From Halobacillus sp. Marseille-P3879 (GTDB taxonomy: Bacteria > Bacillota > Bacilli > Bacillales > Halobacillaceae), in contig NZ_OESS01000001.1 in assembly GCF_900240285.1 (NCBI RefSeq), positions 1,488,001 through 1,552,000 on the forward strand: DNA of 64,000 nucleotides, read 5' to 3'. This document shows, one piece after another, positions 29,629 to 60,463 of this stretch (within the stretch, counting starts at the first letter, position 1; each line of letters opens with the position of its first letter). The translations under genes were made by a program, and so were the position numbers. Under the pieces are notes generated by a model. It did no database searches and was not told where the DNA came from. It was given only the letters and a program-made list of their open reading frames with translations.

Positions 29629-29652
29629 AAAGTACCCTCTATGAGAGCACGC

Positions 29653-29964
29653 AGGCTGTCGAGAACTTTCTCGACAGCCTTATCTGTGTGCCCGCCTGCC
29701 GCTGTCAGACTAGAAAAGGCTCTGTGGCTAAGTGGAAGTACCAGTAGGACGTGTATGGGAAAAAAGAGCGGTTTCGTTTGAATCGACTTTTCAATGAGGG
29801 AAATGGATTATCGTCGTGTGAGAATAGAGAAAGCGGAGCGTTGCTTACCAGGTTATAAAGAACAGGTTTCTTGGAAAGGAAAATGTCTGCGAAAAGCGAG
29901 TGGGTTTTGGCCGCACGTGCGCATAAAAAAGCTTGTAGAAAAACACGAGGTTTCTCTACAAGCT
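29653..29964. repeat. IS1182-derived hairpin-bounded element (copy 2)
   Basis: Left hairpin AGGCTGTCGAGAA (29653) pairs with TTCTCGACAGCCT (ends 29680); right hairpin AGCTTGTAGA (29930) pairs with TCTACAAGCT (ends 29964). Between them a short stretch, 29770-29800, can be read as RLNRLFNEGN, resembling the transposase fragments at 34387 and 60057. It is flanked by AGTACCCTCTAT (29631) and AGTGCCCTCTAT (29966), an 11/12 duplication. No intact gene is present in the 362-bp interval. Confidence 0.7.
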
Positions 29965-29990
29965 GAGTGCCCTCTATTGATGACACTTTT

Positions 29991-33445: not shown

Positions 33446-33534
33446 ATTATTATATAGTCTTGTTTTTTTTGTTATAAAGTGGACTGCTTATGGAAAAACT
33501 AGCCACTATACTGTCTTCTGAAAGGGCGTTGATT

Positions 33535-34098
33535 ATGAAGAAGTGGCTAGGTTTAGCAGGTTTGGTATTATTAATAGGTTGTAACGATGCCAGCCGCTCT
33601 CCTCTTGAAACACCAATTTATAACCAAGAAGGGGATCGAATAGGAAATGCAATTTTTACTGAACAGCCTGATGGAGTGGAAGTAAGTGTTACTGCTGAAG
33701 GACTTTCTTCAGGCGTACATGGGATTCATGTTCATGAACGACCGGAATGTAAAGGTCCTGATTTTAAGAGTGCAGGCAACCACTTTAATCCAAAGAATGC
33801 GGACCACGGGTTAATGAATGAAAAAGGAGCTCATACAGGTGATCTTCCTAATATTGAAGCCGGCGGTGATGGCAAGGTTGACGTAGAATTAATGCTTCCA
33901 GAAGCTACACTTAAAGATGGACAAACTTCTCTATTGAGAGATAAAGGGACTTCGTTGGTGATTCACAGTGAGGCAGATGATGGGATGTCTCAGCCGGCGG
34001 GTGATTCTGGGGAAAGAGTGGCTTGTGCAGAGATTACCCAAGAGGCTGATAAAGATGAAACCAGTGATCCAACAGAGCTGGATGAGAATAATGAATAA
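33535..34098 (+). CDS. sodC: Cu/Zn superoxide dismutase-like lipoprotein (SodC)
   Basis: 187-residue lipoprotein. The signal MKKWLGLAGLVLLIGC ends in lipobox LIGC (Cys16). The SOD fold then shows all metal ligands: GIHVHE (two Cu His), GNHFNP (bridging His), ADHG and GAHTGDLPN (Zn His and Asp), VIHSEADD (Cu His), plus the disulfide pair ECKGP and VACAE. Extracytoplasmic superoxide removal is therefore plausible, unlike B. subtilis YojM, which I recall as missing a Cu ligand. AAAGGG nine bases before ATG 33535 sets the start. An acidic tail ends the protein. Confidence 0.9.
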   Translation: MKKWLGLAGLVLLIGCNDASRSPLETPIYNQEGDRIGNAIFTEQPDGVEVSVTAEGLSSGVHGIHVHERPECKGPDFKSAGNHFNPKNADHGLMNEKGAHTGDLPNIEAGGDGKVDVELMLPEATLKDGQTSLLRDKGTSLVIHSEADDGMSQPAGDSGERVACAEITQEADKDETSDPTELDENNE

Positions 34099-34100
34099 AA

Positions 34101-34129
34101 ACAACTTCCTAGTGTGACTAGGAAGTTGT
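34101..34129. terminator. Terminator hairpin after sodC, left copy of a flanking duplication
   Basis: ACAACTTCCTAGT pairs with ACTAGGAAGTTGT (13 bp, loop of three). The stop of sodC is three bases before. The same 29 bases recur at 34846-34874 with only two mismatches, exactly across the inserted element. Confidence 0.85.
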
Positions 34130-34180
34130 CAGCTTGTAGAGAACTCCCGTGTTTTTCTGCAAGCTTTTTTTGTGTGCACG

Positions 34181-34298
34181 GGCGGGCGAATACCGCTCGC
34201 TTTCCGCGGACGAACGCCCGGGCCTCCTCGTGAAACCCACACTGCGGGGTCTCGGATCGCCCGGTTTTCCGCAGGAGTCTCGCAGTATTCGCCAGCCC
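34181..34298 (-). repeat. GC-rich palindromic repeat nested in the IS1182-derived element
   Basis: Inverted ends GGGCGGGCGAATAC and GTATTCGCCAGCCC. The minus strand contains GAGACTCCTGCGGAAAA and GCGGAAAGCGAGCGG, the hallmarks of the copy at 14971-15084. It carries no credible ORF. Confidence 0.65.
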
Positions 34299-34386
34299 GT
34301 AACAGAAAACGACTCTCCTTCACCTGGCTAACCCTGTCCAGGTGAAGGGCAATCTTTTTTCATGTTCAAACAGGCAGCTGTCAGTA

Positions 34387-34503
34387 ATGCCTTTGAACCG
34401 GCTTTTGAATGAAGTCAAGTGGATTTATCGAATGAGAAAAGAAAAAGTGGAACGTAGCTTCGCAGATACCAAAGAACTGCACGGGCTGCGTTATTATCGT
34501 TTT
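34387..34503 (+). pseudogene. IS1182-family transposase, C-terminal fragment
   Basis: 39 codons read KWIYRMRKEKVERSFADTK and ELHGLRYYRF, the conserved VERSFAD-K-LHG-RY region near the C-terminus of IS1182/IS1380-like transposases. It stops at an abrupt junction where the sequence continues into the inverted N-terminal part. A more decayed relative is at 60057. Confidence 0.72.
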
Positions 34504-34523
34504 GTCTTTCCAATTCCAGTTCC

Positions 34524-34736
34524 GAACGAATCCCATAGAAATAGCCGATAAACATCATTTTGAATACCACAAGAAGATCAAGAGAAGGACGGCCATTGTC
34601 TTGCACGTACTCTTTCAGGGATAAAGGAAAAATCTATGTATTGATCAATCTTACGAAGCAAGTGATCTTCGGGCACCAATTCTTCAATGGTCAATATTTC
34701 GATTTCATTTTGGCGTTCTTTTCTAGAGTGAAACAT
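34524..34736 (-). pseudogene. IS1182-family transposase, N-terminal fragment with frameshift
   Basis: The minus strand from ATG 34736 reads EEDHLLRKIDQYIDFSFI-type sequence (IEELVPEDHLLRKIDQYIDF), the typical IS1182 N-terminus, then shifts frame to YVQDNGRPSLDLLVVFKMMF and ends at YFYGIRS. It faces away from the C-terminal fragment, so the element has been rearranged as well as deleted. Not functional. Confidence 0.75.
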
Positions 34737-34845
34737 GACTAACACCGCCTTAGAGAATTCTTACCTATAGTGTACCAAACTAACGCGGTGAAAAGTGAAA
34801 GTTACAGAAAAAAATAAAGACTGTCGAGACTTTCTCGACAGTCTG

Positions 34846-34874
34846 ACAACTTCCTAGCATGACTAGGAAGTTGT
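34846..34874. terminator. Terminator hairpin of patB, right copy of the flanking duplication
   Basis: ACAACTTCCTAGC pairs with GACTAGGAAGTTGT; six Ts follow on the plus strand. It encodes the last codons of patB (KTTS, stop). 27 of 29 bases equal 34101-34129. Confidence 0.82.
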
Positions 34875-36044
34875 TTTTTGCCGTACGGCATCGACGATAC
34901 GTTGAACCCCATTTTCTATTATTTCCTGGGGAGCAGCAAGGTTCATCCTCATAAACCCTTTCCCTTCTTCTCCGAAAGAAACTCCATCGTTTAGCCCTAC
35001 TTTAGCTTGCTTTTGCATAAATGATTTAAGTTCAGCCTGGGACAAATTTAGCGAGCGGCAATCCAGCCAGAGTAAATAAGTGCCTTCAAGTGGAACTGCC
35101 TTTATTAAATCCGTATGTTTTCTAAACTGTTCTGCAGCGAAGTCTCTATTACTCTGGATTGTTTCAAGGAGCTCCTCCAGCCATTCCTCTCCGTGTATAT
35201 AAGCATTCTCCATGGCAGTTAACCCCAACGTGTTTAGCATATGCATTCCTTGTTTATCAAAGTTCTTCTTAATGGATTCACGTTTTTCTTTATCAGAAGT
35301 CACTATATAAGATGCTTGCAGCCCTGCTAAATTAAATGTTTTTGTGGGAGAGTAGCATGTTACTGTTTGATTGTTCAATTGATTACTTACAGATGCAACA
35401 GGGATATGCTTGTGCTCATCCAAAATCAAATCCGCATGAATTTCATCTGAGGCAATGATTACATTATGCTTTACGCAAATCTCGCCCATTTTCTTTAATT
35501 CTTCTTCTTTCCACACTCTGCCGACAGGATTGTGAGGGTTACAGAGAATAAACATTTTTACGTTATTTTTTACTATCTGGTTTTCAAAGTCTTCAAAATC
35601 GATCGAATACATGCCTTCACTATAGATTAAAGAGTTCTTAACAACATTACGCTGATGTTCTTTGATAACACTGTAAAAAGGTGGGTAGACAGGTGTCTGA
35701 ATAAGTATGTTATCTTGTTCTTCAGTCAGGGCCTGCACGATCATGTGTAAGCTTGGTATAACTCCAGGACTGTAAGTAATCCAATCGGATTCTATGTTCC
35801 ACTGATGCCTTTTAGCAATCCAGTCTATTATAGAGCGCTTTATCTCTTCATCAGGCATGGTGTATCCAAAGATTCCATGCTCTACCCTTTGTTTTAAAGA
35901 ATCGATGACCTCTTGTGGTGCCTGAAAGTCCATATCAGCTACCCACATTGGGAGTATTTCTTTGTCTTGATATAAATGTTCAGCATAATCCCACTTGACT
36001 GAGCGGGTACCTTTGCGTTGAATAACATTTGAAAAACGGCTCAT
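34863..36044 (-). CDS. patB: Cystathionine beta-lyase/aminotransferase PatB (MalY-PatB family)
   Basis: PLP enzyme with C-S lyase activity toward cystathionine and cysteine, feeding homocysteine and methionine synthesis; 393 residues. N-terminal MalY/PatB signature LPMWVADMDFQAPQEV, substrate region FILCNPHNPVGRVWKEEE, PLP Asp in IASDEIHADL and the PLP lysine in YSPTKTFNLAGLQ. The start at 36044 is normal for the family; the ribosome site is GGAGTGG-like. The gene lies with kapB as in B. subtilis patB-kinB-kapB. Its 3' end overlaps the terminator. Confidence 0.92.
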   Translation of the reverse strand: MSRFSNVIQRKGTRSVKWDYAEHLYQDKEILPMWVADMDFQAPQEVIDSLKQRVEHGIFGYTMPDEEIKRSIIDWIAKRHQWNIESDWITYSPGVIPSLHMIVQALTEEQDNILIQTPVYPPFYSVIKEHQRNVVKNSLIYSEGMYSIDFEDFENQIVKNNVKMFILCNPHNPVGRVWKEEELKKMGEICVKHNVIIASDEIHADLILDEHKHIPVASVSNQLNNQTVTCYSPTKTFNLAGLQASYIVTSDKEKRESIKKNFDKQGMHMLNTLGLTAMENAYIHGEEWLEELLETIQSNRDFAAEQFRKHTDLIKAVPLEGTYLLWLDCRSLNLSQAELKSFMQKQAKVGLNDGVSFGEEGKGFMRMNLAAPQEIIENGVQRIVDAVRQKTTS

Positions 36045-59941: not shown

Positions 59942-59970
59942 GGAAGCGCCGTTCCAAACGGCGTTTCTCA
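59942..59970 (+). terminator. Terminator of metK, left copy of a flanking duplication
   Basis: GCGCCGTT pairs with AACGGCGT around CCA, followed by TTCTC. A diverged copy of 26 bases (20 matches by eye) reappears near 60436-60461 beyond the inserted element. Confidence 0.75.
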
Positions 59971-60056
59971 GGCTGTCGAGAAAGATCTCGGCAGTTTTAT
60001 TTTTTGCTTTTTTCCAGGAATTTCTTTTTCTTAAGAAAGAACTCCTGGAGCCGGTG

Positions 60057-60182
60057 GTGAGTGGTTTCAACCAAAAAGAGTTGGATCGTTTGAACGAACT
60101 TTTAAATGAAGGAAAGTGGGTTTTTAGTATGGGAAAAGACTTCCCGGATTCGAAAGCACTCCATGGGCTGAAGTATTGGCGC
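60057..60182 (+). pseudogene. IS1182-type transposase C-terminal remnant
   Basis: The frame reads LNELLNEGKWVFSMGKD then SKALHGLKYWR, collinear with LNRLLNEVKWIYRMRKEK and ELHGLRYYR of the fragment at 34387, with a few residues lost in the VERSFAD part. It is too short for function. Confidence 0.6.
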
Positions 60183-60300
60183 ACACCGAAAGGTAAATGT
60201 CCGTCAACAAGCACTGATGACGGGTACCTGCCAGAACACAGAATATTGCCCTTCACCTATCCAAAGTAAGTTAGAATAGGATAGTCTTTTTCGGTGGAAG

Positions 60301-60370
60301 GCGGGCGAATACCACAAGACTCCGGCGGAAAAATAGCAGGCGTTATGAGACTCTGCAGCGGGGTATTCAC
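60301..60370. repeat. Partial GC-rich palindromic repeat
   Basis: GCGGGCGAATACC at the left and GGGTATTCAC at the right are inverted ends. Inside, AAGACTCCGGCGGAAAA and GAGACTCTGCAG recall the copies at 14971 and 34181. It is shorter than those. Confidence 0.5.
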
Positions 60371-60463
60371 GAGGAGGAGGTCGCATTTACCCGAACGATC
60401 TCACAAAAAAGCTTGTAGAAAAACTCTACAAGCTGTGAAGCACCGTTCTATACGCCACTTCTT

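Follow-up and report, generated by a model that had tools for sequence, protein, structure and literature searches.

In the window, by which is meant the whole 64-kb stretch of Halobacillus DNA that was analysed, two convergent genes, sodC and patB, are separated by a degenerate insertion element enclosed between two nearly identical hairpins. The gene names sodC, patB and ispG (see below) are putative and come from a reading of the sequence. The features of the locus, with two further copies of the element found in the window, are as follows.

29652..29965, − strand: a further short copy of the element, flanked on either side by a diverged terminator hairpin
33490..34098, + strand: sodC (putative), the longest ORF in its frame, with relatives matched by tblastn; its stop lies 2 nt before the left hairpin
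34101..34129, no strand: left of the two copies of the bidirectional terminator hairpin; its stem is 13 bp and its loop 3 nt
34130..34845, − strand: degenerate IS1182-family element with CAG...CTG ends, 716 bp; what remains of the transposase is on the − strand, apart from an internal piece that is inverted
34130..34172, + strand: element end 1, an inward-reading, terminator-like hairpin with T-run, −16.6 kcal/mol
34178..34300, no strand: G+C-rich imperfect inverted-repeat module within the element
34342..34551, + strand: inverted fragment of the transposase C-terminus, 86% identity over 37 aa to the intact transposase
34415..34606, − strand: transposase remnant with part of PF05598 (DUF772), 72% identity to the intact transposase
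34578..34745, − strand: N-terminal remnant of the transposase, 84% identity over 45 aa
34808..34845, − strand: element end 2, an inward-reading, terminator-like hairpin with T-run, −19.0 kcal/mol
34846..34874, no strand: right copy of the duplicated hairpin, T-tract side retained
34863..36044, − strand: patB (putative), convergent with sodC, with relatives matched by tblastn
59969..60435, − strand: third copy of the element, between two similar though diverged hairpins; its left end was placed by counting

The two hairpins lie in direct orientation 745 bp apart and are identical at 27 of 29 bases, and both mismatches (34113/34858 and 34114/34859) are at the loop. With up to two mismatches allowed, the left hairpin occurs in the 64-kb window at just these two places. 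The coordinates and the degree of identity given in the preliminary description were both borne out. The same description placed exactly one base between each hairpin and the element. C 34130 and G 34845 do fall between the target hairpin and the one formed by the element end, but they are the first and last bases of the element itself, which in intact relatives also starts with CAG and ends with CTG, and the target hairpin abuts the element directly. The terminal inverted repeats of the window copy read CAGACTGTCGAGAA / CAGCTTGTAGAGAA, and those of the intact relatives CAGGCTGTCGAGA / CAGCTTGTAGAGA. The left hairpin copy retains its A-tract side, and the element takes the place of the T-tract side. 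The last codons and the stop of patB (34863-34874) sit in the 3′ arm of the right hairpin, and the end of this gene stays intact because the whole hairpin is duplicated.

The assignment to IS1182 made in the preliminary description found support in an intact 460-aa transposase from genome G004, which is 100% identical to a Halobacillus hunanensis record. This intact relative (P0001) matches NF033551, the IS1182 family model, with an E-value of 9.9e-144 and 480 bits at a cut-off of 270, and the fragments in the window are 72-86% identical to it. Of the window's transposase only fragments remain, two of them on the minus strand and a third, inverted, on the plus strand; this third one (34342..34551) gives a weak PF13751 match (E 0.002) under the PF13751 cut-off. 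The residues of the DDE triad, D156, D286 and E413, are invariant in 32/32 aligned transposases (39 loci were tried for the alignment and tree, 7 of which had no long open frame), the broken window copy standing outside this alignment. Judged by its sequence, the window copy is a fossil with a broken transposase.

The rest of the genome offers a similar picture. Its five PF05598 matches are every one partial or broken, and a search with the element and its ends gave at least 63 matches, so it holds fossils and short derivatives. The own-genome copy counts are lower bounds, as 40 of 78 candidates were scored; 36 stretches were taken and 33 left ends tested. A junction repeat scoring at least 13 was found in 9/33 left-end copies compared with 1/2000 mismatched flank pairs, and a stem of at least 8 pairs abuts 17/33 left ends compared with 18/1980 control positions; a clear repeat was kept in just 9 of the 33 copies. 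The rearranged interior of the window copy recurs at another site, L009, as a single alignment with 84% identity. An interior common to two copies at different sites suggests non-autonomous movement in trans, and in Halobacillus sp. A5 copies of ~465-505 bp are present with both ends and repeats. The G+C-rich module is also carried by the intact H. hunanensis copies, between transposase and end, and its exact core pattern occurs at 3 places in the window's own genome at ≤1 mismatch. At the left junction of L042, the abutting hairpin (CTGTCGAG...CTCGACAG) looks like the end of an element, as would result if a copy had landed in the end-terminator of another.

Target hairpins and repeat length across Bacilli and Clostridia

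Sixty related loci from Bacilli and Clostridia were surveyed, with one genome per species searched. The first junction scan took 55 of the 60 (5 contig-end loci were left out) and the later scans took all 60. The null of the first scan had a 99th percentile of 14 and a maximum of 40, the latter meaning that a few mismatched pairs have long sequence in common. Both end motifs, at a loose setting, were present in 47/60 loci. A junction repeat was found in 31 of these 47, and none in the other 16, many of which seem by eye to carry a spurious right motif. The repeats are 17-35 bp long (n = 31), and 21 of them are exact (17-30 bp). Every repeat folds as one hairpin from end to end, the outermost pair lying ≤2 nt from both repeat ends in 31/31; the z-score of the fold is below −2 in 30/31, and an A-rich left or T-rich right flank is found at all 31. 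Insertion took place ≤120 nt 3′ of an ORF stop at 27/31 loci, and at none of the 31 did it fall inside an ORF of 200 codons.

Two observations go beyond the preliminary description: repeat length tracks the hairpin, and terminator folds are formed by the ends of the element itself. For the former, a correlation of r = 0.96 between hairpin and repeat length was discarded as partly circular, the hairpin having been measured inside the repeat, and was replaced by a search of the joined flanks that is blind to the repeat. This search gave a Spearman coefficient of 0.60 between hairpin core and repeat length. It placed a G:C core ≤3 nt from both repeat ends at 25/31 loci, with L089, L096, L101, L115, L122 and L133 failing at this distance, while slid placements gave 183/3100 (5.9%). 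A repeat length set by the hairpin is strongly supported.

A target duplication of fixed length was rejected, as the exact repeats span 17-30 bp at 21 loci. The exceptions are L109 (Paenibacillus, 55% identical), which has both ends and an 8-bp repeat without a hairpin, and L120 (B. mojavensis), which has both ends and a 10-bp repeat, again without a hairpin. Short repeats of this kind, few as they are with two cases, suggest that the enzyme may revert to an ordinary stagger where the DNA lacks structure. Three further loci are of irregular form: the two sides of L114 carry different hairpins, as recombination between copies would leave them, L124 has a hairpin on one side alone, and L128, which is outside the 31 counted, has the hairpin at both junctions, the copies differing by a 1-nt indel.

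In the mechanism we propose, the intrinsic terminator between sodC and patB would be entered by an IS1182-family element or by a non-autonomous derivative mobilised in trans. The transposase would recognise the extruded hairpin (cruciform), and the two 3′ ends of the element would be joined at the hairpin's 5′ foot on each strand. Because of the joining at the 5′ feet, gap filling would copy the whole hairpin, and the length of the hairpin would set that of the repeat. Attack on a cruciform is an inference. The target may instead be a hairpin on single-stranded DNA, in the lagging strand or a transcription bubble. Terminators do form hairpins on single strands, and other elements are known to target hairpins in single-stranded DNA. 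Nevertheless, no orientation bias with respect to the neighbouring gene was found (10 loci with a gene on the left only, 9 on the right only and 8 with convergent genes on both sides), as a symmetric duplex target predicts, and we regard the single-stranded target as unlikely.

An ordinary staggered cut was also considered, one that is aimed at terminators and leaves a long, loosely variable repeat, so that structure guides the targeting and not the cut positions. The 8-10 bp repeats of L109 and L120 at non-hairpin sites speak for it, as does the moderate correlation of 0.60. Nevertheless, the repeat ends flank the hairpin symmetrically far more often than in the slid controls (25/31 against 5.9%), and one fixed geometry would hardly yield repeats that range from 17 to 35 bp; we regard the staggered cut as improbable.

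The folding of the element ends was looked at in 28 of the 31 repeat-bearing loci. One end folds at ≤−17 kcal/mol in 27/28 relatives, the exception being the truncated L122, and the other folds at −14.3 kcal/mol or lower in 28/28. The stems of the ends vary among Halobacillus, Evansella, Clostridium and Caloramator, and the hairpin is kept; the T-runs are weak at one end of the Sporosarcina copies. A mechanical terminator scan of the window gave 3 sites where 1.4 were expected, and lists element end 2 but not end 1. Insertion would split the old terminator such that one copy loses its T-tract and the other its A-tract. Since each hairpin copy loses the tract on the element side, the hairpin and T-run at both element ends would take over termination for the two flanking genes, and the element ends would thereby replace the function of the split terminator. 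With termination supplied by the ends, a terminator would be a low-cost landing site. Landing in terminators and bringing terminators along suggests how an element can live between genes with little harm.

Element-free junctions in the genus

The preliminary description had proposed insertion into one common terminator with duplication of the whole hairpin, and that an empty sodC-patB junction should hold a single hairpin. In the genus sample of 10 other genomes, sodC and patB are convergent in 10/10, with 28-142 nt between the matched protein ends, and from this spacing the element is absent there. A mechanical scan for hairpins of at least 8 pairs found exactly one in 7/10 of these empty junctions. 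Two of the 10 (L053 and L054) have the main hairpin and a second, weaker one, and one (L059) has no hairpin at this threshold, where RNAfold still draws an imperfect hairpin. A 12-nt direct repeat was found in 0/10 of the element-free junctions. The junction hairpin of the nearest relative, L051, resembles that of the window. The element-free convergent junctions support the proposed insertion.

A second site is found downstream of ispG. In H. hunanensis, the element lies there between two exact 29-bp hairpin copies, and the other congeners have one hairpin in 10/10, mostly with the same GGTGGACC...GGTCCACC arms. The intact 460-aa relative carries exact hairpin repeats of 20 bp and 29 bp; intact relatives give the same outcome as the window, with exact repeats. 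An element-end-like sequence (GTAGAGAAACC...TTTCTACAAGCTTTTTT) was also seen downstream of another gene, at L238 of G002, and is perhaps one more terminator insertion.

These sites bear on two other accounts of the paired hairpins. Tandem terminators occur in general, and two of them may have pre-existed between sodC and patB with the element landing in between, as the second, weaker hairpins of L053 and L054 would allow; this is very improbable, as none of the ten empty junctions, lacking the 12-nt direct repeat, has two like hairpins, and the exact repeats vary by site while the element is constant. That the hairpins are the outermost ends of the element and not a copied target is scarcely credible: they adjoin the ends in most copies and the element ends are hairpins too, but the hairpin sequence varies by locus while the ends are constant, and element-free genomes carry the same hairpin family at the ispG site.

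Taken together, insertion with duplication of the whole hairpin is near certain. On comparative sequence grounds, we consider it highly probable that an IS1182-family element, or a non-autonomous derivative of one, inserted into the single bidirectional terminator of these two convergent genes, with duplication of the whole hairpin, the wider mechanism given above included.

Other IS1182 lineages and known systems

Two other IS1182 lineages are found in Halobacillus. The transposase of the 493-aa type is 22-23% identical to the 460-aa type and forms a separate clade. Copies of this lineage (L139, L144, L140, L145, L141, L142, L195-L223) have the ends GAGGCCACTGAA...TTCAGTGGCCTC and are inserted in hairpin loops, mostly those of terminators. 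The lineage duplicates the loop, and the repeats are mostly 8-12 bp. Loop insertion with loop duplication was observed in 6/6 of the family sample; in family and order together, 35 loci were tried, of which 31 have a repeat, and at least 5 pairs span the repeat in 25 of these 31. L208 and L219 have only 5-nt, chance-like repeats. The G+C-rich module at 34178-34300 is also seen in L062, the intact H. hunanensis element, and similar-looking modules flank L141, L142, L203-L206, L216 and L218, where they serve as landing sites for this loop-duplicating lineage.

In the 566-aa lineage (L146-L156), a direct repeat is absent at the 7 copies compared. L154 was compared with L231 (G006), which is free of the element and has a hairpin there, whereas the filled site lacks it. 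A hairpin is also present at the L154 site in three other congeners (L232, L233 and L234); for the remaining 6 of the 10, the alignment stopped short of the flank's end. The comparison of L073 with L172 was uninformative, as ~230 bp differ between the genomes, and no useful congener was found for an empty-site comparison of L151. At the one compared site, the terminator hairpin appears to have been replaced, as in IS1272.

The lineages of H. hunanensis match replacement (one compared site), duplication of the whole hairpin (two copies) and duplication of the loop (two copies). We lean slightly towards a common explanation, in which the extruded hairpin would dictate the spacing of the two strand transfers in the IS1182 family and the lineages would differ only in the point of attack: the 3′ feet (hairpin replaced), the 5′ feet (hairpin duplicated) or the loop (loop duplicated). 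All three would then occur in a single H. hunanensis genome, each alongside the sites of the other two, and the lineage that duplicates whole hairpins would have adapted to terminators by making its own ends terminators. Target duplications are usually taken as a fixed footprint of the transposase; here, in Bacilli and Clostridia, their length follows the fold of the DNA. If the three-lineage reading is true, the geometry of the DNA and not that of the enzyme is the ruler for target duplication. A genome with what look like all three outcomes makes the mechanism testable in lineages with a common catalytic triad. For annotation, these elements and their short derivatives can be recognised by a pair of like hairpins that encloses an insert.

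Hairpins or terminators are also the landing sites of group IIC introns and REP-targeting ISs. These use different enzymes, and we know of no whole-hairpin duplication by them. A full-text search, mostly without subscription papers and ISfinder, found no earlier report of natural whole-hairpin duplication. No earlier natural example of joining at the 5′ feet, drawn as pathway b in the scheme discussed below, is known to us either, and the claim of novelty is a limited one.

The window's element shares the NF033551 family model and terminal inverted repeats with the IS1182 family in general, some members of which target palindromes (Siguier et al., as cited in PMC5678879 and PMC4923244). The closest known systems are IS1272 and TnSha1 of the same family, which are described as targeting hairpins, often terminators, without a sequence consensus (PMC5678879, PMC4923244). 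From these descriptions, they resemble the window's group in the IS1182-family transposase, the hairpin target and the hairpin-forming ends. IS1272 deletes the target stem-loop and makes no repeat (PMC5678879, PMC4923244), whereas in the window's group the hairpin stays and is duplicated in full. Stem-loop replacement of the IS1272 type was rejected for the window's element, as the hairpin is retained on both sides in the window and at the 31 loci. In the scheme of Wan et al. 2017 (PMC5678879, Fig 13), pathway b joins at the 5′ feet and duplicates the entire stem-loop, and pathway c joins at the loop and duplicates the loop; the authors argue for the 3′ feet in IS1272 and give b and c as possibilities. 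As far as that scheme goes, the lineages described here provide natural cases for the two pathways which the IS1272 authors drew as possibilities (PMC5678879). Pathway c matches the 493-aa lineage of the same genus and not the window's element, which behaves as pathway b, and here a whole clade shows pathway b.
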